From Sideroxydans sp. (GTDB lineage: Bacteria > Pseudomonadota > Gammaproteobacteria > Burkholderiales > Gallionellaceae), in assembly GCA_028710605.1 (NCBI GenBank), contig JAQTTU010000001.1, positions 186,001-250,000 on the forward strand: 64,000 nt of DNA. Reading direction: 5' to 3'. A program made the translations under genes and the position numbers. This document shows, piece by piece, positions 22,221-59,178 of the stretch. The notes beneath the pieces are model-generated. The model was not told where the DNA came from. It was given only the letters and a program-made list of their open reading frames with translations, and made no database searches. Positions within the stretch are counted from its first letter, which is position 1; each line of letters begins with the position of its first letter.

Positions 22221-22335
22221 CTCCCTTCTCCCGCAGGCGGGAGAAGGGCTGGGGATGAGGGTCAGTGCGATGCAACCAGCTTGGCGAATACTCAACGACC
22301 CTCACCCTAACCCTCTCCCGCCTGCGGGAGAGGGG
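22221..22335. repeat. Family E palindromic repeat, two arms
   Basis: CTCCCTTCTCCCGCAGGCGG hairpin at the left and CCTCTCCCGCCTGCGGGAG at the right, with outer GATGAGGGTC / GACCCTCACC arms in opposite orientation. It fills the gap before folA. Confidence 0.85.
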
Positions 22336-51588: not shown

Positions 51589-51798
51589 GGTGGGCACGTT
51601 TCATGCGCCCACGCGGTTTGCTTCATGGCGCTGTTCCGCCTTTGCAGGGGCGAATTTACCTCGAAGAGGTCCATGCACCCTGTGGGTGTTCGCCCGTTTT
51701 GTGTTGGGTTGGGCGAATGAATTCGCCCCTACAACCCGATCCGCCCACGCGGTCAACGTTCAACAATCAACGCGTGGGCACATGAAACGTGCCCCCTA
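51589..51798. repeat. Nested repeats: family N outer arms around a family D palindrome
   Basis: Outer arms TGGGCACGTTTCATGCGCCC (about 51590) and GGGCACATGAAACGTGCCC (about 51776) are opposed with one mismatch. Inside are arms GCAGGGGCGAATT (51644) and AATTCGCCCCTAC (51732). The right outer end contains the TAG stop of the hyfI-like gene. Confidence 0.85.
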
Positions 51799-52302
51799 CT
51801 TGCTGATCGCGGTGAGTATGCCTTGCAGGATGGCGACCGGCGTGGGCGGACAACCTTGCACCACCACATCGACCGGAATGACGTTGGAAATTTTGCCGCA
51901 GCTGGCGTAGCTCTCGCCGAAGATGCCGCCGTCGCAGGCGCAATCGCCGATGGCGACCACCAGCTTGGGTTCGGGCGTGGCATCGTAGGTGCGCTTGAGC
52001 GCGATCTCCATGTGGCGCGACACGGGGCCTGTGACCAGCAGCAGGTCGGCGTGGCGCGGGCTGGCGACGAATTTGATGCCCAGCCCTTCGATGTTGTAAT
52101 AGGCATTGTTGACCGCATGAATCTCCAGCTCGCAGCCGTTGCACGAACCGGCATCCACCATGCGGATCGCCAGCGCGCCGCCGAACGCATCCAGAATGGA
52201 TTGCTGCAAACGCTGTTCGACCGGGCGCATGGCTTCGTCCGCCTGCGGCGGCGTTTCGGTTTTGATGCCGGTCTTGATGATCTGTTTGAGTATCTGGTAC
52301 AT
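51796..52302 (-). CDS. hyfI: Hydrogenase-4-like small subunit (HyfI/NuoB type)
   Basis: A 168-residue subunit of a group 4 hydrogenase/complex I-like enzyme that holds the proximal [4Fe-4S] cluster. Ligands are C54 and C57 (GSCNGCELE), C121 (GDCACDGGIFG) and C151 (GCPPTP). The CxxC spacing is of hydrogenase type rather than the tandem CC of NuoB. The cluster is therefore retained even though the large subunit has no [NiFe] ligands. ATG 52302 overlaps the hyfG stop (TGATG). The stop codon comes from a repeat. It is the last gene of the operon. Confidence 0.9.
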   Translation of the reverse strand: MYQILKQIIKTGIKTETPPQADEAMRPVEQRLQQSILDAFGGALAIRMVDAGSCNGCELEIHAVNNAYYNIEGLGIKFVASPRHADLLLVTGPVSRHMEIALKRTYDATPEPKLVVAIGDCACDGGIFGESYASCGKISNVIPVDVVVQGCPPTPVAILQGILTAISK

Positions 52303-53924
52303 CAGAGATCCTGTCCGCTGTAACTCAAGTTGAACGATTTGTTGATGAGCGGGAAATCCGGCACGATGTTGTCGATGATGGCGTGTTCCAGCAGCGGCCA
52401 GTTTTGCCACGACGGATCGTGCGGATGCACGCGCGCGAGCTTGCCCTCGCCATCGGTGTGGATCGCCACCATCACTTCGCCGCGCCAGCCTTCCACCATG
52501 CCGATGCCGAAACCATTGGCGGGCAATTTTTCCAGCGGGGTTGGCTCGCCTTCTTCATAGATCATGTTGGCCAATATTTCGCGCTGCAAGCGCAGCGATT
52601 CGAACAGCTCGTCGAAACGCACGATGGCGCGCGCCGCCACGTCGCCGTTGCGGTAGGTCGCCATGCGCACGTCCAGCTTGTCGTAGGGCGCACAGGGGAA
52701 CTGTACGCGCGCATCCCACGCCTGCGCGCTGGCACGTCCGGCAAGACCGCACAGTCCGAGCTGGTCGGCCAGTTTCGGCGTGACCGTGCCGGTACTGATG
52801 AAACGATCCTGCAAGCCCGCATGTTCGTCGTAGATGCCGCGCAGGATGCTCACTTCACGTTGCAGCATGGCGCATTCTTCCTCGATGATGCGCTTGCCTT
52901 CGGCGCTGATATTCGCGCTGCCCCCGCCCGGCACAATCTTGTCCATCAGATAACGGTGGCCAAACAGCTTGGCGTTGTTGCGCAGCACTTGTTCCTTGAG
53001 TATCCAGAATTGCGCGAAACCAAAAGCCAGCGCCACATCGTTGCCCAGATAGCCGAGGTCGCCCAGATGATTGGCGACGCGCTCGCGTTCCAGCAGCAGT
53101 GCACGCAGCCACAGCGCGCGCTTGGTCGGCGCGATGTTGGCGATGCTTTCCGCCGCCATCGCATACGCCCACGCATACGCCACCGTGCTGTCGCCGCTGA
53201 CGCGCCCGACCAGCTTTGCACCTTGCTGCAAGCTCATGCTCTCGAAACGTTTCTCTGTGCCCTTGTGCACGTAGCCCAAACGTTCTTCCAGACGCAACAC
53301 GCGCTCGCCGATAATGGAGAAACGGAAGTGCCCCGGCTCGATGATGCCCGCATGTACCGGGCCGACCGGAATCTCGTGCACGCCCTGGCCTTCGACTTGC
53401 ACAAAAGCGTAATCATCAAGGGTTTGGATTCCATTCTCCGCAGGAGAATGGACGTTTGCTCCCTCTCCCGCAGGCGGGAGAGGGTTGGGGTGAGGGGCGT
53501 TGAGATGCGAACTGCCATCAAAATCCTTGCGCAACGGAAAACTGCCGCTGTGCCACGACGCGTGGCGCAACCACTTGCGGTGATCGTGACCTTCCTGCGC
53601 GTACAGGCCGAGCATGTCGTAAGCCGCGCGCTGCATGCGGTTGGCGGCGGGGAAAATGCGGCTGATGTCGGGATATACCGGCTGCACCGCAGACAGTTTC
53701 ACGTTCAGGCAAATCAGTCCGCTTTCGGTCATCAGCGTCACATGCAGCATGAAACAATTTTTTTCAATGCGCGCATCGCTGCCCCACAACGCCACCAGTC
53801 TGCCGCCGCCTTCGCGCACTTGCTGGCAGATGGCATACAGATCATCCGGCGCGATGTCGCCCGACCATGCCGGAACGGCGTCGGTCATTCTGTTGAGTTT
53901 CAGGTTGGGATGTTTAATCGGCAT
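52302..53924 (-). CDS. hyfG: Hydrogenase-4-like large subunit (HyfG/NuoCD type) without [NiFe] cysteines
   Basis: 540 residues. The NuoC-like part is 1-135 (ending WHSGSFPLRKDF) and the NuoD/hydrogenase-like part runs from about 167. The [NiFe] ligand motifs are gone: R-x-C-G-x-C-x3-H reads RVSGDSTVAY (241-250), and the C-terminal DPCxxC reads DPSWQN (503-508). So no [NiFe] centre can form, although the fold and the RVANHLGDLG helix are kept. Residues about 140-166 come from a family E palindrome at the NuoC/NuoD junction. ATG 53924 lacks a clear Shine-Dalgarno; ATG 53888 is an alternative. Confidence 0.92.
   Translation of the reverse strand: MPIKHPNLKLNRMTDAVPAWSGDIAPDDLYAICQQVREGGGRLVALWGSDARIEKNCFMLHVTLMTESGLICLNVKLSAVQPVYPDISRIFPAANRMQRAAYDMLGLYAQEGHDHRKWLRHASWHSGSFPLRKDFDGSSHLNAPHPNPLPPAGEGANVHSPAENGIQTLDDYAFVQVEGQGVHEIPVGPVHAGIIEPGHFRFSIIGERVLRLEERLGYVHKGTEKRFESMSLQQGAKLVGRVSGDSTVAYAWAYAMAAESIANIAPTKRALWLRALLLERERVANHLGDLGYLGNDVALAFGFAQFWILKEQVLRNNAKLFGHRYLMDKIVPGGGSANISAEGKRIIEEECAMLQREVSILRGIYDEHAGLQDRFISTGTVTPKLADQLGLCGLAGRASAQAWDARVQFPCAPYDKLDVRMATYRNGDVAARAIVRFDELFESLRLQREILANMIYEEGEPTPLEKLPANGFGIGMVEGWRGEVMVAIHTDGEGKLARVHPHDPSWQNWPLLEHAIIDNIVPDFPLINKSFNLSYSGQDL
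53431..53498. repeat. Family E palindrome inside hyfG
   Basis: CCATTCTCCGCAGGAGAATG hairpin followed by CCCTCTCCCGCAGGCGGGAG and GGTTGGGGTGAGGGG. Read in frame on the minus strand. Confidence 0.85.
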
Positions 53925-53951
53925 TGTTTATTTTAAAGTCAAAACCATTCA

Positions 53952-54070
53952 GCCACAGAGGACACAGAGATCACAGAGAAAAGCAAAACCTGCCTCTCAG
54001 CCATTGAAGCGCTCCCCGCCAAACTTGAATCTACCTGTGTCATCTCTGTGTCCTCTGTGTTCTCTGTGGC
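53952..54070. repeat. Family J inverted repeat between hyfF and hyfG
   Basis: GCCACAGAGGACACAGAGAT and the complement ending GTTCTCTGTGGC around about 60 bp, inside an otherwise overlapping operon. Confidence 0.88.
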
Positions 54071-54088
54071 AAAAAAGGTTTTCAAGAA

Positions 54089-55546
54089 TTATCCCAGCAG
54101 CGCCGCAGCCTGACGATACCAGTCGGCCAGATACGGCGGCATGTACAAACCGAGCATCAGCACCAGCAGCAAATGGGCGAATACCGGCACCAGCGCGGGC
54201 GAATGCGGCAGCGGTTTGGCCGTGGTTTCGCCGAACACCACGGGCTGGATTTTGCCGAAGATGGCGGCGAAGGCCACGCCCAGCGAGATCAGCAGAACCG
54301 GCGTTGCCCACGGATAGGAATGCATGGCGGTGGTGATGATGAGGAACTCGCTGGAGAACACGCCGAACGGCGGCATGCCGAGAATGGCGAACGTGCCCAG
54401 CGCCAAGCCCCAGCCCACGGTGGGGCTGACTTGCAGCAGGCCGCGAATATTTTCCATCTGCTGCGTGCCGACTTTTTGCACGGCATGGCCGACCGCGAAG
54501 AAGATCGCCGATTTGGTCAGCGAATGCACGGTCATGTGCAACATGCCGGCGAAGGTCGCCACCGGCCCGCCCATGCCGAAGGCGAAGGTGATGAGCCCCA
54601 TGTGCTCGATGGAGGAATAGGCGAACATGCGCTTGATGTCACGCTGTCTGAACAGCGAGAACGAAGCCACCGCCACCGACAGCAGGCCGAAGCCCATCAT
54701 CAAATTGCCCGCGAAGTGCGTGCCGAGCGAACCGTCCACCAGCACTTTGCTGCGCACCACCGCGCAAAACGCCACGTTGAGCAACAAGCCGGACAGCACG
54801 GCGGATACCGGGGTCGGACCTTCCGCGTGCGCGTCCGGCAACCAGCTATGCAGCGGCACCAGGCCGACTTTGGTGCCGTAGCCCACCAGCAAAAATACGA
54901 AGGCCAGTTTGAGCACGGTCGGTTCCAGATCGCCTTTCACTTCATTCAAATGCGTCCACAGCAGCGCCGTGCCGCCTTCGCCCAGCACGCGCTCGGCGGC
55001 GAAGTACAACAGAATCGTGCCGAACAAAGCCAACGCAATGCCCACGCCACACAGGATGAAATATTTCCATGCCGCTTCCAGACTGGCCGGGGTGCGATAC
55101 AACGACACCAGCAACACCGTGGTCAGCGTCGCCGCTTCCATGGCCACCCACACAATGCCCATGTTGTTGGTGGTCAGCGCGATTAGCATGGCGAAGGTGA
55201 ACAACTGGTACATGCTGTAGTACAGGTGCAGCATGCCGGTGGAGAGTTTGCCGTGGTGCTGTTCGATGCGCATGTAGGGGCGCGAAAACAGCGAAGTGGT
55301 GAAGGCGACGAAGGCGGTCAGCGCCACCAGAAACACGTTGAACTGGTCGATGAAAAACTGTTCGCCGAACGCGACTTGCGGGCCGGAGTCGATCACGCGC
55401 ATAGTCAAAAAAGCCGACGCGATGAAGGTGAAAAAACTCATCAGCGAGTTGAGTTCCGCCGCCCACGGGCGCGAGCCGAACAGCGCCAGCAGCACGCCGC
55501 CCAGCAGCGGGATCAGCAACAGCGCCATGAGTTGCACATCAATCAT
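54089..55546 (-). CDS. hyfF: Hydrogenase-4-like antiporter subunit (HyfF/NuoN-L type)
   Basis: A 485-residue membrane protein with about 13-14 helices of the Mrp-antiporter/NuoL-M-N family. The channel helices bear the expected charged residues: Glu in WVAMEAATLTTVLLV, Lys in GYGTKVGLVPLHSWLPDAHA, and Lys/His in HMTVHSLTKSAIFFAVGH. ATG 55546 overlaps the hyfE end by eight bases. Together with HyfB it should form the two ion-pumping modules of the complex. It is followed by a repeat-filled 164-bp gap before hyfG. Confidence 0.92.
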   Translation of the reverse strand: MIDVQLMALLLIPLLGGVLLALFGSRPWAAELNSLMSFFTFIASAFLTMRVIDSGPQVAFGEQFFIDQFNVFLVALTAFVAFTTSLFSRPYMRIEQHHGKLSTGMLHLYYSMYQLFTFAMLIALTTNNMGIVWVAMEAATLTTVLLVSLYRTPASLEAAWKYFILCGVGIALALFGTILLYFAAERVLGEGGTALLWTHLNEVKGDLEPTVLKLAFVFLLVGYGTKVGLVPLHSWLPDAHAEGPTPVSAVLSGLLLNVAFCAVVRSKVLVDGSLGTHFAGNLMMGFGLLSVAVASFSLFRQRDIKRMFAYSSIEHMGLITFAFGMGGPVATFAGMLHMTVHSLTKSAIFFAVGHAVQKVGTQQMENIRGLLQVSPTVGWGLALGTFAILGMPPFGVFSSEFLIITTAMHSYPWATPVLLISLGVAFAAIFGKIQPVVFGETTAKPLPHSPALVPVFAHLLLVLMLGLYMPPYLADWYRQAAALLG

Positions 55547-56201
55547 CTTTAAGCTTTTCCATGTTGGTGATGTCCAGACTGTCGAAGGTCTCGCGGATCT
55601 GGAAGAAAAAGATACCGAAAATGAAGGTGGCGACCAGCACGTCCAGCGCGATGCCCAGCTCGACCACCAGCGGCATGCCTTGTGTGGCGCTGGTGGCGGC
55701 AAAGAACAGGCCGTTTTCCAGCGACAGGAAGGCCACCACTTGGGTAACCGCCTTGCGCCGCGTCAGCATCATCAGCATCGACAGCAGCACGCTGGCCAGC
55801 GCGATGCCGATCAGTCCGCGCGTGATGCCTTCGGCCAGTTGCGAGATCGGCGCAGCCAGGTTGAACGCGAAGATCACCAGCGCGATGCCGACCAGCATGG
55901 TGGTCGGGATGTTAATCATGGTCTCCACATCCCAGCGCACGTTGAGCTTGCGGATCAGGCGGTGCAGCAGCCACGGCAACAGCAGCACTTTGAGCAGCAG
56001 CGTCAGCCCCGCCGAGTAATACAGGTGATGCTGGCCGGTGGAATACGCCACGACGAATGTGCTCAAGGCGAGCAGCGCGCCCTGCCACGCGAACAGGTTG
56101 ATCAGCGACAAAATTCTGCGCTGCGCCAGCATGGCGAACGCGATCAGCAGCAGCAGCGCGGCCAGCAGGTTGATGAATTGCAGGGTGAGTGGAATCTGCA
56201 T
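55539..56201 (-). CDS. hyfE: Hydrogenase-4-like membrane subunit HyfE
   Basis: A 220-residue membrane protein with about six or seven helices, NuoK-like in its C-terminal half (FLSLENGLFFAATSATQGMP, with the conserved Glu of LSLENG). HyfE-type subunits occur only in hydrogenase-4/FHL-2 and related complexes and not in complex I. ATG 56201 (MQIPLTLQFINLL) is two bases past the hyfC stop. It is part of the tightly coupled hyfB-C-E-F string. Confidence 0.9.
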   Translation of the reverse strand: MQIPLTLQFINLLAALLLLIAFAMLAQRRILSLINLFAWQGALLALSTFVVAYSTGQHHLYYSAGLTLLLKVLLLPWLLHRLIRKLNVRWDVETMINIPTTMLVGIALVIFAFNLAAPISQLAEGITRGLIGIALASVLLSMLMMLTRRKAVTQVVAFLSLENGLFFAATSATQGMPLVVELGIALDVLVATFIFGIFFFQIRETFDSLDITNMEKLKDD

Positions 56202-56203
56202 CG

Positions 56204-57169
56204 TTATGCGCCCAGCAGGAAATGGATCAACAAGCCCAGCACGGCCAGCAGGAAGGCGGTGCCGAGGAATTCGGGCGCGCGGAAGATGCGCATCTTGGCG
56301 GTCACTGTTTCCAGTACGGCCAGCCCCGCGCCCGCCACCAGCAATTTCAGCAGCAGCCACACCACCGCCAGCGGCAGCCCCGCCCAGTTGCCCGCTTCGA
56401 CGATGCCGTAAGGGAAGAACAGCGCGACACCGATGGAAATATAGGCCAGCAATTTTAGGCTGCTCGCCCATTCGATCAGCGCCAGATGGCGCGCGGAATA
56501 TTCCAGAATCATCGCCTCGTGGATCATGGTGAGTTCGAGATGGGTGCTGGGATTATCCACCGGGATGCGCGCATTCTCGGCCAGCAGCACGATCAAAAAC
56601 GCCAGCGCGGCGAAAGCCAGACTGGGATACAGCACGAACTGGTGATAGGCCAGCGACTCAACGATGCGCGGCAACTGGGTGGAGTGGCTGATCATCGACG
56701 CGGTGAACAACACCATCAGCAGCGCCGGTTCGGCGAGGAAGGACACCAGCATTTCGCGCCGTGCGCCCAGCGTGCCGAACGAGGTGCCGATGTCCATCGC
56801 GGCCAGCGCGATGAACACGCGCGCCAGCGCGAACACGCCGACCAGCGCGATCACGTCGGCAGCTTGCGAGAACGGCAAGTCCACCGCGATGATAGGAATA
56901 ATCGCCGCCGCCAGCCACATGCAGCCGAACACGATATACGGCGTAACGCGGAACAACCACGAGGCGTTGTGCGCCATCACCGCATCCTTGTGGAACAGTT
57001 TGCGCAGCACGCGATAAGGTTGCAACACGCCCGCGCCGGAACGGTTTTGCAGCCACGCCTGACACTGGTTGACCCAGCCGGTTAGCAAGGGCGCGAGCAG
57101 CACCACCACCAGCAGTTGCGCGAGCTGGAACAGGATGGCGAAGAAGAGATTGAGGTTGAAGTTTTCCAT
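56204..57169 (-). CDS. hyfC: Hydrogenase-4-like membrane anchor subunit (HyfC/NuoH type)
   Basis: A 321-residue NuoH-like membrane protein of about eight helices, beginning MENFNLNLFFAILFQLAQLL. The loop GAGVLQPYRVLRKLFHKDA and EDARIPVDNPSTHLELTM-type segment (NARIPVDNPSTHLELTMIHE) are the conserved faces that contact the hydrophilic arm. NuoH/HyfC couples redox chemistry to the ion pumps. Its ATG overlaps the hyfB stop (TGATG). Confidence 0.92.
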   Translation of the reverse strand: MENFNLNLFFAILFQLAQLLVVVLLAPLLTGWVNQCQAWLQNRSGAGVLQPYRVLRKLFHKDAVMAHNASWLFRVTPYIVFGCMWLAAAIIPIIAVDLPFSQAADVIALVGVFALARVFIALAAMDIGTSFGTLGARREMLVSFLAEPALLMVLFTASMISHSTQLPRIVESLAYHQFVLYPSLAFAALAFLIVLLAENARIPVDNPSTHLELTMIHEAMILEYSARHLALIEWASSLKLLAYISIGVALFFPYGIVEAGNWAGLPLAVVWLLLKLLVAGAGLAVLETVTAKMRIFRAPEFLGTAFLLAVLGLLIHFLLGA

Positions 57170-59178
57170 CACACGAACACCAGCAACACGATCAACGTGA
57201 CAAACGTGTAAGTCAGATACAAATGGATGCGCCCGTGCTGCAACAGCCCGGCCAGCGCCGCGAGTTTTTCGGTGATGTGTTTGATCGGCAGATACAGGAT
57301 GTACCACAGCCGGTCTTCGGTTTGTCCGTGATAGCGCGGGTGCGTGTCGAACGGGCTGGGCACATCGCGTTCGATCTGGAAAAACGGTTCGAAGATGCGG
57401 CGTATCGGCTGGCCGAAACCTTCGGCGGTATCCTGCATGCGCGGCGTTTGCGCGGGGAAGCCGCAATCCCACGGCGGGCTGCGGCGCAGGCGGCCATGAT
57501 AAAAGCGCCGCACCAATACGCTGGTCAACAGCATCACGCCCAGCACCGCCAGCAGGAAATACAGCGGGCTGTAGCTGGCGCGTTCGGTATCCACAGGCGC
57601 GAGGAATACCCAATCATTCGCGGCATTGCCCAGGTGCGTGCCCAGCAGCATTTGCGACACTTGATCCAGTTGCCCCACCACCATCACCGGAGCCAGCCCC
57701 AGCACCACGCAGGCCAGCGCCAGCCAGCCCATGCCCATGCATTCCCATTTGCCCGCGTCATGTGCGTGCTCCAGCGATTTCTCGCGCGGCTGGCCAAGGA
57801 AAATCACGCCGTAGAATTTCACCATCACGTAAGCGGCCAGCGCCGCCGCCAGCGCGATCACCGCCGCCGCCACGGGAACCAGCATGTTGATGTAGTTGTT
57901 GGGCAAGCCCGGCGACAGCAGGAAGGCTTGCAACATCAGCCATTCCGAGACGAAGCCGTTCAGCGGCGGCAGACCCGCAATCGCCAGCACACCCACCAGC
58001 ATCAGCGCCGCCGCCCACGGCATGCGCTGGATCAACCCGCCCAAGCGCCCCATGTTGCGCTCGCCGGTGGCATGCAGAATCGAACCCGTGCCGATGAACA
58101 GCAGGCTCTTGAACATGGCGTGGTTCAGGCTGTGATACAGCGTGGCGATCAGCGACAGTGCGGCCAGCGTGTCTTTGCCGTAAACGTGGAAAATAATCGT
58201 GAGGCCGATACCGACCAGCAGCAGGCCGATGTTCTCGATGGAGGAATAGGCCAGCAGGCGTTTCATGTCGCCCTGCACCGCCGCGAACATCACGCCGAAC
58301 ACCGCCGTCAGCAGCCCCAACCCCAGCGCCAGCACGCCCCACCACCATAATTGCGTGCCGAGCAGATCGAACGTCACGCGCAGGATGCCGTAGATGGCGG
58401 TCTTCAGCATCACGCCGCTCATCAGCGCGGACACCGGCGACGGCGCGGCGGGATGCGCCTCGGGCAACCACACGTGCATCGGCAACACACCGGCTTTCGC
58501 GCCGAAGCCGAACAGCGCCAGCAAGAACGCCACCGACGACCAGAATTCGGTCAGGTGCCCGGCGCGCATGGTGTCGAAGGTGTAAGCGCCGATGCCGAGC
58601 CCGGCCTGCATCACGCCGAAGCTCAACAGAATCGCGATCGCGCCGACGTGCGCGATCAGCAAATACAGGTAGCCCGCTTTGCGGATGTCGGGAATGCTGT
58701 GATCGGTGGTGACCAGAAAGTAGGAAGACAGCGCCATGGTTTCCCATGCCACCATGAACATGTAGGCATCGTCCGCCACCAGCACCAGCGTCATGCCGAC
58801 CAGGAACAAGTGATATTCGAGGCACAGCAGACCCAGCGTTTCGCCCGCCATGGATTTGAAATAGCCCGCGCTGTAAAGCGACACGCCGAACGACGCGCCG
58901 CCCAGCAAAATCAGAAAGAAACCGGACAGCGGATCGAGACGCAGATGGAAAGGCAGATCGGGCAAGCCCAGCGGCAGCACCATGATGTTTGGCGTTGCGG
59001 CCAGCGCCCACACGCCGACAGCCGCCAGCAGCAGCGAGGTCAGCGCGCTGAGCGGAAAAACAAAACGATTGATGAACTGCGGAGTCCGTTGCAGCAGCAA
59101 CCCGGCCCCCCCGAGCGCTATCCAGAACTGAACCAGCCAGCCGACCACATCCAACGGTAATATTCCCACAGCGTCCAT
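57169..59178 (-). CDS. hyfB: Hydrogenase-4-like antiporter subunit (HyfB/NuoL type)
   Basis: A 669-residue membrane protein, first gene of the operon. The central Mrp-type core has MAWETMALSSYFLV (conserved Glu), GFGAKAGVLPMHVWLPEAHP (Lys) and YHSLNHAMFKSLLFIGTGS (His/Lys). The long C-terminal part with a soluble loop (RRSPPWDCGFPAQTPRMQDT) and a last helix resembles the HyfB/NuoL lateral-helix extension. There is no clear Shine-Dalgarno before ATG 59178. The promoter should lie in 59179-59320. Confidence 0.92.
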   Translation of the reverse strand: MDAVGILPLDVVGWLVQFWIALGGAGLLLQRTPQFINRFVFPLSALTSLLLAAVGVWALAATPNIMVLPLGLPDLPFHLRLDPLSGFFLILLGGASFGVSLYSAGYFKSMAGETLGLLCLEYHLFLVGMTLVLVADDAYMFMVAWETMALSSYFLVTTDHSIPDIRKAGYLYLLIAHVGAIAILLSFGVMQAGLGIGAYTFDTMRAGHLTEFWSSVAFLLALFGFGAKAGVLPMHVWLPEAHPAAPSPVSALMSGVMLKTAIYGILRVTFDLLGTQLWWWGVLALGLGLLTAVFGVMFAAVQGDMKRLLAYSSIENIGLLLVGIGLTIIFHVYGKDTLAALSLIATLYHSLNHAMFKSLLFIGTGSILHATGERNMGRLGGLIQRMPWAAALMLVGVLAIAGLPPLNGFVSEWLMLQAFLLSPGLPNNYINMLVPVAAAVIALAAALAAYVMVKFYGVIFLGQPREKSLEHAHDAGKWECMGMGWLALACVVLGLAPVMVVGQLDQVSQMLLGTHLGNAANDWVFLAPVDTERASYSPLYFLLAVLGVMLLTSVLVRRFYHGRLRRSPPWDCGFPAQTPRMQDTAEGFGQPIRRIFEPFFQIERDVPSPFDTHPRYHGQTEDRLWYILYLPIKHITEKLAALAGLLQHGRIHLYLTYTFVTLIVLLVFV

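Follow-up and report, generated by a model that had tools for sequence, protein, structure and literature searches.

The window analyzed here, i.e., the whole stretch of 64,000 nucleotides from Sideroxydans sp. contig JAQTTU010000001.1 (positions 186,001 to 250,000), carries six minus-strand genes in the order hyfB-C-E-F-G-I (59178-51796) that encode a hydrogenase-like membrane complex. A preliminary description of this DNA had named the same six Hyf-like genes and seen in them an energy-converting-hydrogenase-related (Ehr) complex without a [NiFe] site. Both points have been borne out, the genes by open reading frame (ORF) translations and profile matches, and the Ehr assignment by the cysteine-less large subunits of relatives, by HycE as nearest solved relative, and by published descriptions of Ehr complexes. 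The complex belongs to a known kind, and the new part is its linkage to SulP-type permeases, carbonic anhydrases, and cbb genes in some relatives. Based on this gene linkage and on co-occurrence across genomes, we tentatively regard an ion pump serving inorganic-carbon uptake as the best reading, with a probability of about 0.42.

The genes and the two motif positions on which the argument turns are listed below. Starts of hyfC, hyfE, hyfF, and hyfI were chosen by alignment and gene spacing; they are likely starts that lie downstream of those of the longest ORFs.

57169..59178, minus strand: hyfB-like, NuoL/antiporter-like subunit, 669 amino acids (NCBIfam hydrogenase 4 subunit B, 931 bits, cut-off 667)
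56204..57169, minus strand: hyfC-like, NuoH-like subunit, 321 amino acids, likely start MENFNL at 57169, longest ORF from 57613 (Pfam NADHdh, 1.5e-36)
55539..56201, minus strand: hyfE-like, 220 amino acids, likely start MQIPLT at 56201, longest ORF from 56471
54089..55546, minus strand: hyfF-like, antiporter-like subunit, 485 amino acids, likely start MIDVQL at 55546, longest ORF from 55702
52302..53924, minus strand: hyfG-like, fused NuoC/NuoD-type large subunit without [NiFe] ligands, 540 amino acids (Pfam Complex1_30kDa and Complex1_49kDa)
51796..52302, minus strand: hyfI-like, NuoB-like small subunit with one [4Fe-4S] site, 168 amino acids, likely start MYQILK at 52302, longest ORF from 52410 (Pfam Oxidored_q6, 2.8e-31)
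53166..53204, minus strand: first [NiFe] motif position (L1), HyfG residues 241-253, RVSGDSTVAYAWA
52305..52337, minus strand: true second [NiFe] motif position (L2), HyfG residues 530-540, SFNLSYSGQDL

Pfam cut-offs are passed by HyfC (NADHdh), HyfG (complex I 30 and 49 kDa families), and HyfI (Oxidored_q6). The hyfF product, with conserved charged and histidine residues, scores 873 bits against the NCBIfam model for hydrogenase 4 subunit F (cut-off 543), and that of hyfE matches the hydrogenase 4 membrane subunit at 1.4e-22, i.e., under the curated cut-off, and found no match in a Pfam search. The best solved relatives of HyfI are MbhJ and formate hydrogenlyase subunit 7, while HyfG is, among solved chains, closest in sequence to HycE (7z0s_E) and MBH alpha. 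Its predicted structure (mean predicted local distance difference test score 79, with residues 142-221 and 534-540 below 50; predicted template modeling score 0.82) again has HycE 7z0s_E as nearest fold (TMq 0.81), followed by E. coli NuoCD (0.73-0.78).

A redesigned head in place of the [NiFe] site

The motif positions were assigned by alignment with L166 and L167, two large subunits from this order in which none of the four cysteines is missing. At L1, their RICGICGSVH aligns with RVSGDSTVAY of the window HyfG, so that the cysteine positions are Ser243 and Ser246 and the histidine position is Tyr250, just as the preliminary description had read them. It had, though, placed the second motif at DPSWQN, which alignments with HycE and L166/L167 rule out as a metal motif: DPSWQN is a separate conserved stretch that aligns with HycE RAATYANWP and with APTFTN of L166/L167. 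The true site is SFNLSYSGQDL, aligned with SIDPCFSCTDR of L166/L167 and SLDPCYSC of HycE, and the cysteine pair is lost there, too.

These replacements are shared widely. Across 119 HyfG rows of at least 44% identity (the window included, three rows duplicating others), the L1 cysteine pair is found in none; position 243 is Ser in 102, Ala in 9, and Cys in 8 rows, position 246 is Ser in 106, Thr in 8, Ala in 4, and Met in 1, and Asp245 is present in all 119. The L2 pair is equally missing from every row, with Ser (102), Asn (8), Ala (6), Cys (1), or a gap (2) at position 534 and Gly (116), Ala (1), or a gap (2) at position 537. N528-K529-S530 is found in 117 rows, the other two being gaps. At the same time, the cluster ligands of HyfI are kept, i.e., Cys54 and Cys57 in 120 of 120 rows, Cys121 in 119 (one gap), and Cys151 in 118 (two gaps). 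Conservation reaches at least 98% for HyfB Glu146, Lys228, His235, His353, Lys357, and Glu412 (105 sequences) and for many charged and histidine residues of HyfB, HyfC, HyfE, and HyfF (105-112 sequences), some of which (Glu, Lys, and His of the antiporter-like subunits) presumably form the ion path. The earlier claim that HyfI cluster cysteines and antiporter charges remain is confirmed, and it extends to the relatives.

Because no cysteine pair occurs in any of the 119 rows while the HyfI cysteines are kept, the replacement at the [NiFe] motifs is not a sequencing error. The dead [NiFe] site together with the kept HyfI ligands and membrane-arm residues means that the unit is a maintained complex with a redesigned head rather than a damaged hydrogenase.

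The linker of HyfG contains a further feature:

53461..53504, minus strand: in-frame copy of a dispersed genomic repeat, translated at about residues 141-155 between the NuoC- and NuoD-like parts

Around 40 further short matches to this repeat are scattered over the window genome, and other copies lie in the window itself (e.g., 22291-22334). One relative (L009) has a different insert at the same spot of the linker.

Relatives, their gene neighborhoods, and the window genome

With query P0002, 86 of 300 genomes of the order were matched (E 1e-25). Leaving aside six at about 28-35% identity (G190, G004, G139, G177, G208, and G270), our counting set comprises 80 carriers, some of which are incomplete genomes or have a fragmented gene. 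Scanning GTDB contigs confirmed at least 572 of at least 586 stretches, and the best 80 of these, which were kept, include Gallionella, Sideroxyarcus, Thiobacillus, Rhodoferax, Accumulibacter, Thiomonas, Paraburkholderia, Rhodanobacter, Myxococcaceae, and others. The six genes are complete and in the order BCEFGI on a single strand in 95 of 118 distinct loci, and most of the remaining 23 are truncated at contig ends or have over-long ORF starts that disturb the order. No ORF with the two C..C..C...C[PA] motifs of a two-cluster ferredoxin lies within 1.5 kb of any of 100 units having HyfB and HyfI, and no HypD match is present in 32 of the 80 carrier genomes, 19 of which are at least 95% complete.

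The neighborhoods of some relatives add a permease. SulP genes were found in 20 of 121 loci (20/118 without duplicates) and directly upstream of hyfB on the same strand, with gaps of 7-410 bp, in 13 of 105 (13/102 without three duplicates). Within 10 kb of hyfG, SulP is present in 18 of 57 SulP-bearing genomes against 0.75 expected, and within 20 kb in 21 against 1.5, on the assumption of random placement and independent genomes. On a quick HyfG tree, in which 7 of the 27 SulP-linked rows had been fetched for their nearby SulP, the linkage requires 13 changes, at least 7 by starred branches. Permeases of the SLC13/CitMHS type are neighbors in 5 of 121 loci.

Carbonic anhydrase genes join these permeases in several places. 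A gamma carbonic anhydrase lies directly upstream of the unit in four loci (L057, L064, L095, and L101), each time behind a SulP and/or SLC13/CitMHS permease, and four loci that had been fetched for their nearby SulP show further arrangements: SulP, gamma carbonic anhydrase, SulP, and then the hyf unit (L172); SulP, gamma carbonic anhydrase, a small ORF, and then the unit (L177); gamma carbonic anhydrase and SulP convergent with the unit (L171); and SulP, the unit, and a CsoSCA-like gene past hyfI (L174). By profile, the gamma carbonic anhydrases are CcmM/Cam-like and have their top scores with models for CcmM and carbonic anhydrase. For the L174 protein, TIGR02701 is the best model. These scores are all under the NCBIfam cut-offs; a CsoSCA-like relative is over the Pfam cut-off for CsoSCA_cat. 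RuBisCO genes adjoin the unit in L053, L056, L095, and L125, the last of these a Thiomonas locus in which the unit, RuBisCO, and CbbQ- and CbbO-like genes follow each other on one strand. In L048, the unit faces an alpha-carboxysome operon in convergent orientation (CsoS2, CsoSCA, CcmL-type, two bacterial microcompartment (BMC) proteins, and CbbQ), the one such case seen among 17 of 80 carriers with a BMC match. The window clade is sister to a clade with carboxysome and cbb neighbors (SH-aLRT 84, quick tree). Within 30 kb of hyfG, RuBisCO is found in 6 of 52 genomes (P 0.008).

A strong RuBisCO match is present in 56 of 80 Ehr genomes compared to 54 of 220 others, and the odds ratio (OR) between complex and RuBisCO is 6.0 (P 0.0018) when stratified by family, with 11 informative families in this and the other stratified tests. 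Sulfur oxidation was considered as a hidden cause and rejected, as the OR for SoxB of 3.6 without stratification falls to 1.05 (P 0.84) with it.

The window genome itself (3.36 Mb, 99.7% complete) is Gallionellaceae-like, judging from the closest relatives with a name. Its SulP genes are on contigs C7 and C9, none near the Hyf-like operon, and a RuBisCO gene with adjoining CbbQ- and CbbO-like genes is on C22; a search for DabA (PF10070) gave no match. The nuo genes (identified by eye and BLAST) lie on C16, and hypD on C10 in the same region as a separate [NiFe] hydrogenase that is nearest to NiFeSe-type models, below cut-off. The preliminary description had found the window free of HyfA/HyfH ferredoxin, NuoEFG, formate dehydrogenase, and maturation genes, and this holds as far as tested: the window has no match to HypD, molybdopterin oxidoreductase, or HycF/HyfH, with NuoEFG not searched for separately. 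The search for a detached HycF/HyfH-like ferredoxin gene that it had suggested gave NuoI as best match in the genome and otherwise weaker ones. A cysteine-bearing large subunit encoded nearby or elsewhere, which it had named as a possible objection, was not found either, since a HyfG search of the genome returned, repeat matches aside, a single other match, the NuoD-like gene on C16. Four molybdopterin oxidoreductase matches lie on contigs C30, C16, C17, and C9, one of them NuoG by position and the C9 one scoring best against PhsA, below cut-off. Also on C9 (locus L160), two tandem SulP genes adjoin an operon for a molybdoenzyme of the DMSO-reductase family.

Several loci depart from the common arrangement. 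In L097, an operon with a cysteine-bearing large subunit (CGVC...ELCYSCTDR, without C-terminal extension) lies directly upstream of a complete cysteine-less unit, and this subunit is possibly an intermediate or a partner of the latter. Second, divergent copies with HyfG about 42-45% identical occur in L041, L076, and L169 (genomes G132, G182, and G103); those of L041 and L076 are cysteine-less, and in L041 both units stand in tandem. A ribbon-helix-helix small protein (Pfam RHH_9) is encoded in 15 of 121 loci (e.g., L108, L126, L139, L151, and L154) and, in 9 of 102 distinct loci, its gene (on one strand or the other) is the immediate upstream neighbor of hyfB, which makes it a candidate regulator.

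A more distant cysteine-less class has the gene order C-E-F-G-I-B and HyfG about 29-35% identical. All four of its loci examined contain the fluoride riboswitch RF01734:

L163, 4535-4598: RF01734
L164, 8930-9004 and 10409-10472: RF01734
L165, 5413-5475: RF01734
L168, 14326-14392: RF01734

Neighbors in this class include CrcB (L163, L164, and L168), DUF190 (L165 and L168), and enolase (L164 and L165), and it may represent a fluoride-responsive hydrogenase-like complex. An Rfam search of the window gave no match, hence no fluoride riboswitch at its operon, and L172, L177, and L041 had no Rfam match either.

Proposed role in inorganic-carbon acquisition and competing explanations

We picture the complex as a membrane-bound, ion-translocating machine of the Ehr kind, in which the antiporter-like HyfB and HyfF together with the NuoH-like and HyfE-like subunits would carry a cytoplasmic head of two proteins, HyfG and HyfI, with one iron-sulfur cluster. 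Pumping would be coupled to electron flow via the HyfI cluster, and, because no ferredoxin subunit was found with the unit, the partner would probably be a soluble carrier or a quinone. Judging from relatives, its job in autotrophs may be inorganic-carbon acquisition: the redox-made ion gradient could power bicarbonate accumulation through SulP-type permeases for RuBisCO. Alternatively, a carbonic anhydrase docked on the complex might be the driver, as suggested by gene order in Thiobacillus-type relatives. We prefer inorganic-carbon acquisition over other roles for two reasons: genes for permeases, carbonic anhydrases, RuBisCO, and carboxysomes come together at the unit, and the association with RuBisCO outlasts stratification but that with SoxB does not. 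For the window organism this role would follow by kinship alone, since the operon lies apart from its SulP and cbb genes.

Several observations weigh against a function in carbon uptake. SulP, carbonic anhydrase, and cbb neighbors are absent at the window operon and at most relatives, and RuBisCO is not significantly enriched at close range to hyfG (2/52 within 10 kb, P 0.12; 3/52 within 20 kb, P 0.11). No strong RuBisCO match was found in 24 of the 80 Ehr genomes, Paraburkholderia and Rhodanobacter are among the carriers, and, conversely, RuBisCO occurs without the complex in 5 of 9 genomes of the window's family. The stratified OR for HypD (8.0, P 0.003) matches that of RuBisCO in strength, so the profile may mark just lithoautotrophy. 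Mutual exclusivity with DabA, considered as a sign of equivalent function, is not clear either, with a stratified OR of 0.59 (P 0.27), an overall OR of 1.02, an OR of 0.52 within RuBisCO carriers (P 0.15), and a logistic OR of 0.45 (z -2.1). Finally, the one neighboring SulP that was compared, in L093, is far closer to plant SULTR4;1 (1.1e-101) than to 6ki1 (7.9e-30) and may therefore carry sulfate, so that a BicA-like identity of the neighboring SulP is unsupported; 6ki1, which we take to be BicA, is deposited as a low affinity sulfate transporter.

Reverse electron transport, a role close to that envisaged in the preliminary description, is an unlikely but serious contender. Electrons from quinol or from a soluble carrier would be driven by the proton motive force onto ferredoxin or another low-potential acceptor, as iron- and sulfur-oxidizing autotrophs need. 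HyfI cluster ligands in every ungapped row and the conserved membrane-arm residues point to a redox-coupled pump or its reverse, and the joint association with RuBisCO and HypD marks lithoautotrophs. Yet none of the 100 units has the two-cluster ferredoxin ORF nearby, NuoI and weaker matches are all that the window genome offers as a detached HycF/HyfH-like gene, and its nuo genes could do the job. Beside L1, HyfG has Gly where the organism's own NuoD has the Tyr of RLDYV, a residue that presumably binds quinone, and the linkage to permeases and carbonic anhydrases would be left unexplained. The neighborhoods of relatives appear to favor transport of anions or inorganic carbon at least as much as a redox role of this kind. 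A general function in anion and pH/ion homeostasis, with the complex energizing or compensating anion transport (sulfate or others by SulP, fluoride in the distant class), seems to us rather improbable: the SULTR4;1 likeness, the SLC13/CitMHS neighbors, and the CrcB, DUF190, or enolase genes and riboswitches of the C-E-F-G-I-B class speak for it, but carbonic anhydrase, cbb, and carboxysome genes adjoin several units, and the stratified association is with RuBisCO and not with SoxB.

Partnership with a formate dehydrogenase has been proposed in publications for Ehr complexes of Geobacter and Margulisbacteria, and Geobacter Ehr subunits were all more abundant on formate than with hydrogen according to these reports (PMC7894505, PMC6349859). 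For the window organism we hold such a link to be highly improbable, as the four molybdopterin oxidoreductase matches all lie on other contigs, and one of the four is NuoG by position and another scores best, below cut-off, against PhsA. There is next to no chance that the unit is a dying relic or, as the preliminary description had allowed, a functional [NiFe] hydrogenase whose motifs were garbled by sequencing errors. We found no support for either, and conservation refutes both in effect: the cysteine pairs are missing throughout the 119 rows with mostly conserved residues in their place, the many carriers without a HypD match include highly complete genomes, and the six genes remain ordered on one strand in most loci.

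Ehr complexes have been noted for years without a known donor, acceptor, or role, and the gene linkage in relatives offers a concrete, testable idea. Should carbon uptake be the true function, iron- and sulfur-oxidizing autotrophs, some of them without DAB like the window organism, would own a separate, hydrogenase-derived CO2-concentrating pump. Should it not be, the [NiFe] fold has still been put to a new use here, as the conserved HyfG site shows.

Comparison with known systems

The complex is supported as Ehr-type, a likeness to the Ehr of Geobacter and Nitrospira that is drawn from published descriptions. As far as the accessible text of these papers goes, Ehr complexes are group-4-like, lack the metal ligands, and have no known function (PMC6349859, PMC10284858, PMC7894505, PMC8691401). 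Those of Geobacter (GSU0739-0745), Margulisbacteria/Saganbacteria, and comammox Nitrospira are described there as having membrane and head subunits of the Hydrogenase-4/Ech type, together with a HyfE-like protein and a large subunit without CxxC ligands. The window unit likewise combines a group-4-related large subunit that has lost its Ni/Fe cysteine ligands with antiporter-like, HyfE-like, and small subunits. Linkage to SulP, carbonic anhydrase, or cbb genes, as in the relatives studied here, goes unmentioned in the same accessible text. Among the papers listed in literature searches, none was seen that connects an Ehr complex or a Hyf-like one with SulP, carbonic anhydrase, or carboxysomes. 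Term searches of accessible text found no hydrogenase, NDH-1, complex I, Thiobacillus, or Gallionella in a 2024 review of the carbon-uptake toolkit (PMC10880623) and no Hyf in a structure paper on DAB2 (PMC13144422).

Hydrogenase-4 and formate hydrogenlyase are close kin, with HycE as best match of HyfG in both sequence and fold and with HyfB and HyfF passing the NCBIfam hydrogenase 4 cut-offs. In contrast to them, the window HyfG has neither the [NiFe] ligands (CxxC...CxxC) nor the C-terminal extension, no ferredoxin subunit of the HyfA/HyfH type was found with the unit, and the unit occurs in genomes without a HypD match. Complex I shares a homologous membrane arm and head (NuoB, CD, H, L, and M/N) and is likewise without a metal site. 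Unlike complex I, the unit has no NuoI-type ORF with it in a motif search (NuoE, F, and G were not searched for by model), its HyfG lacks the DY of NuoD at L1, and the nuo genes are separate on another contig.

Two systems for inorganic-carbon uptake invite comparison. The vectorial carbonic anhydrase DAB2 (DabA-DabB) uses an antiporter-like membrane subunit for carbon uptake in chemolithoautotrophs but has no electron transfer and no ion-pair motifs, as stated in the accessible text of PMC13144422, whereas the window unit keeps both its cluster ligands and its charged residues. The CO2-hydrating NDH-1MS of cyanobacteria is, as we propose for the unit, a complex I relative tied to inorganic-carbon accumulation. 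It has its own CO2-hydrating subunits, and no such subunit is among the six genes of the window. NDH-1MS is ferredoxin-driven according to the same accessible text (PMC13144422). It is conceivable, though doubtful, that a third energy-coupled concentrator of inorganic carbon stands beside NDH-1MS and DAB in Thiobacillus-, Sulfuritalea-, and Gallionella-type autotrophs: one that would be derived from a hydrogenase, with its cavity rebuilt around the conserved RVSGDS...NKSFNLSYSG, driven by redox chemistry with one iron-sulfur cluster, and partnered by SulP permeases and by carbonic anhydrases of the gamma or CsoSCA-like type.

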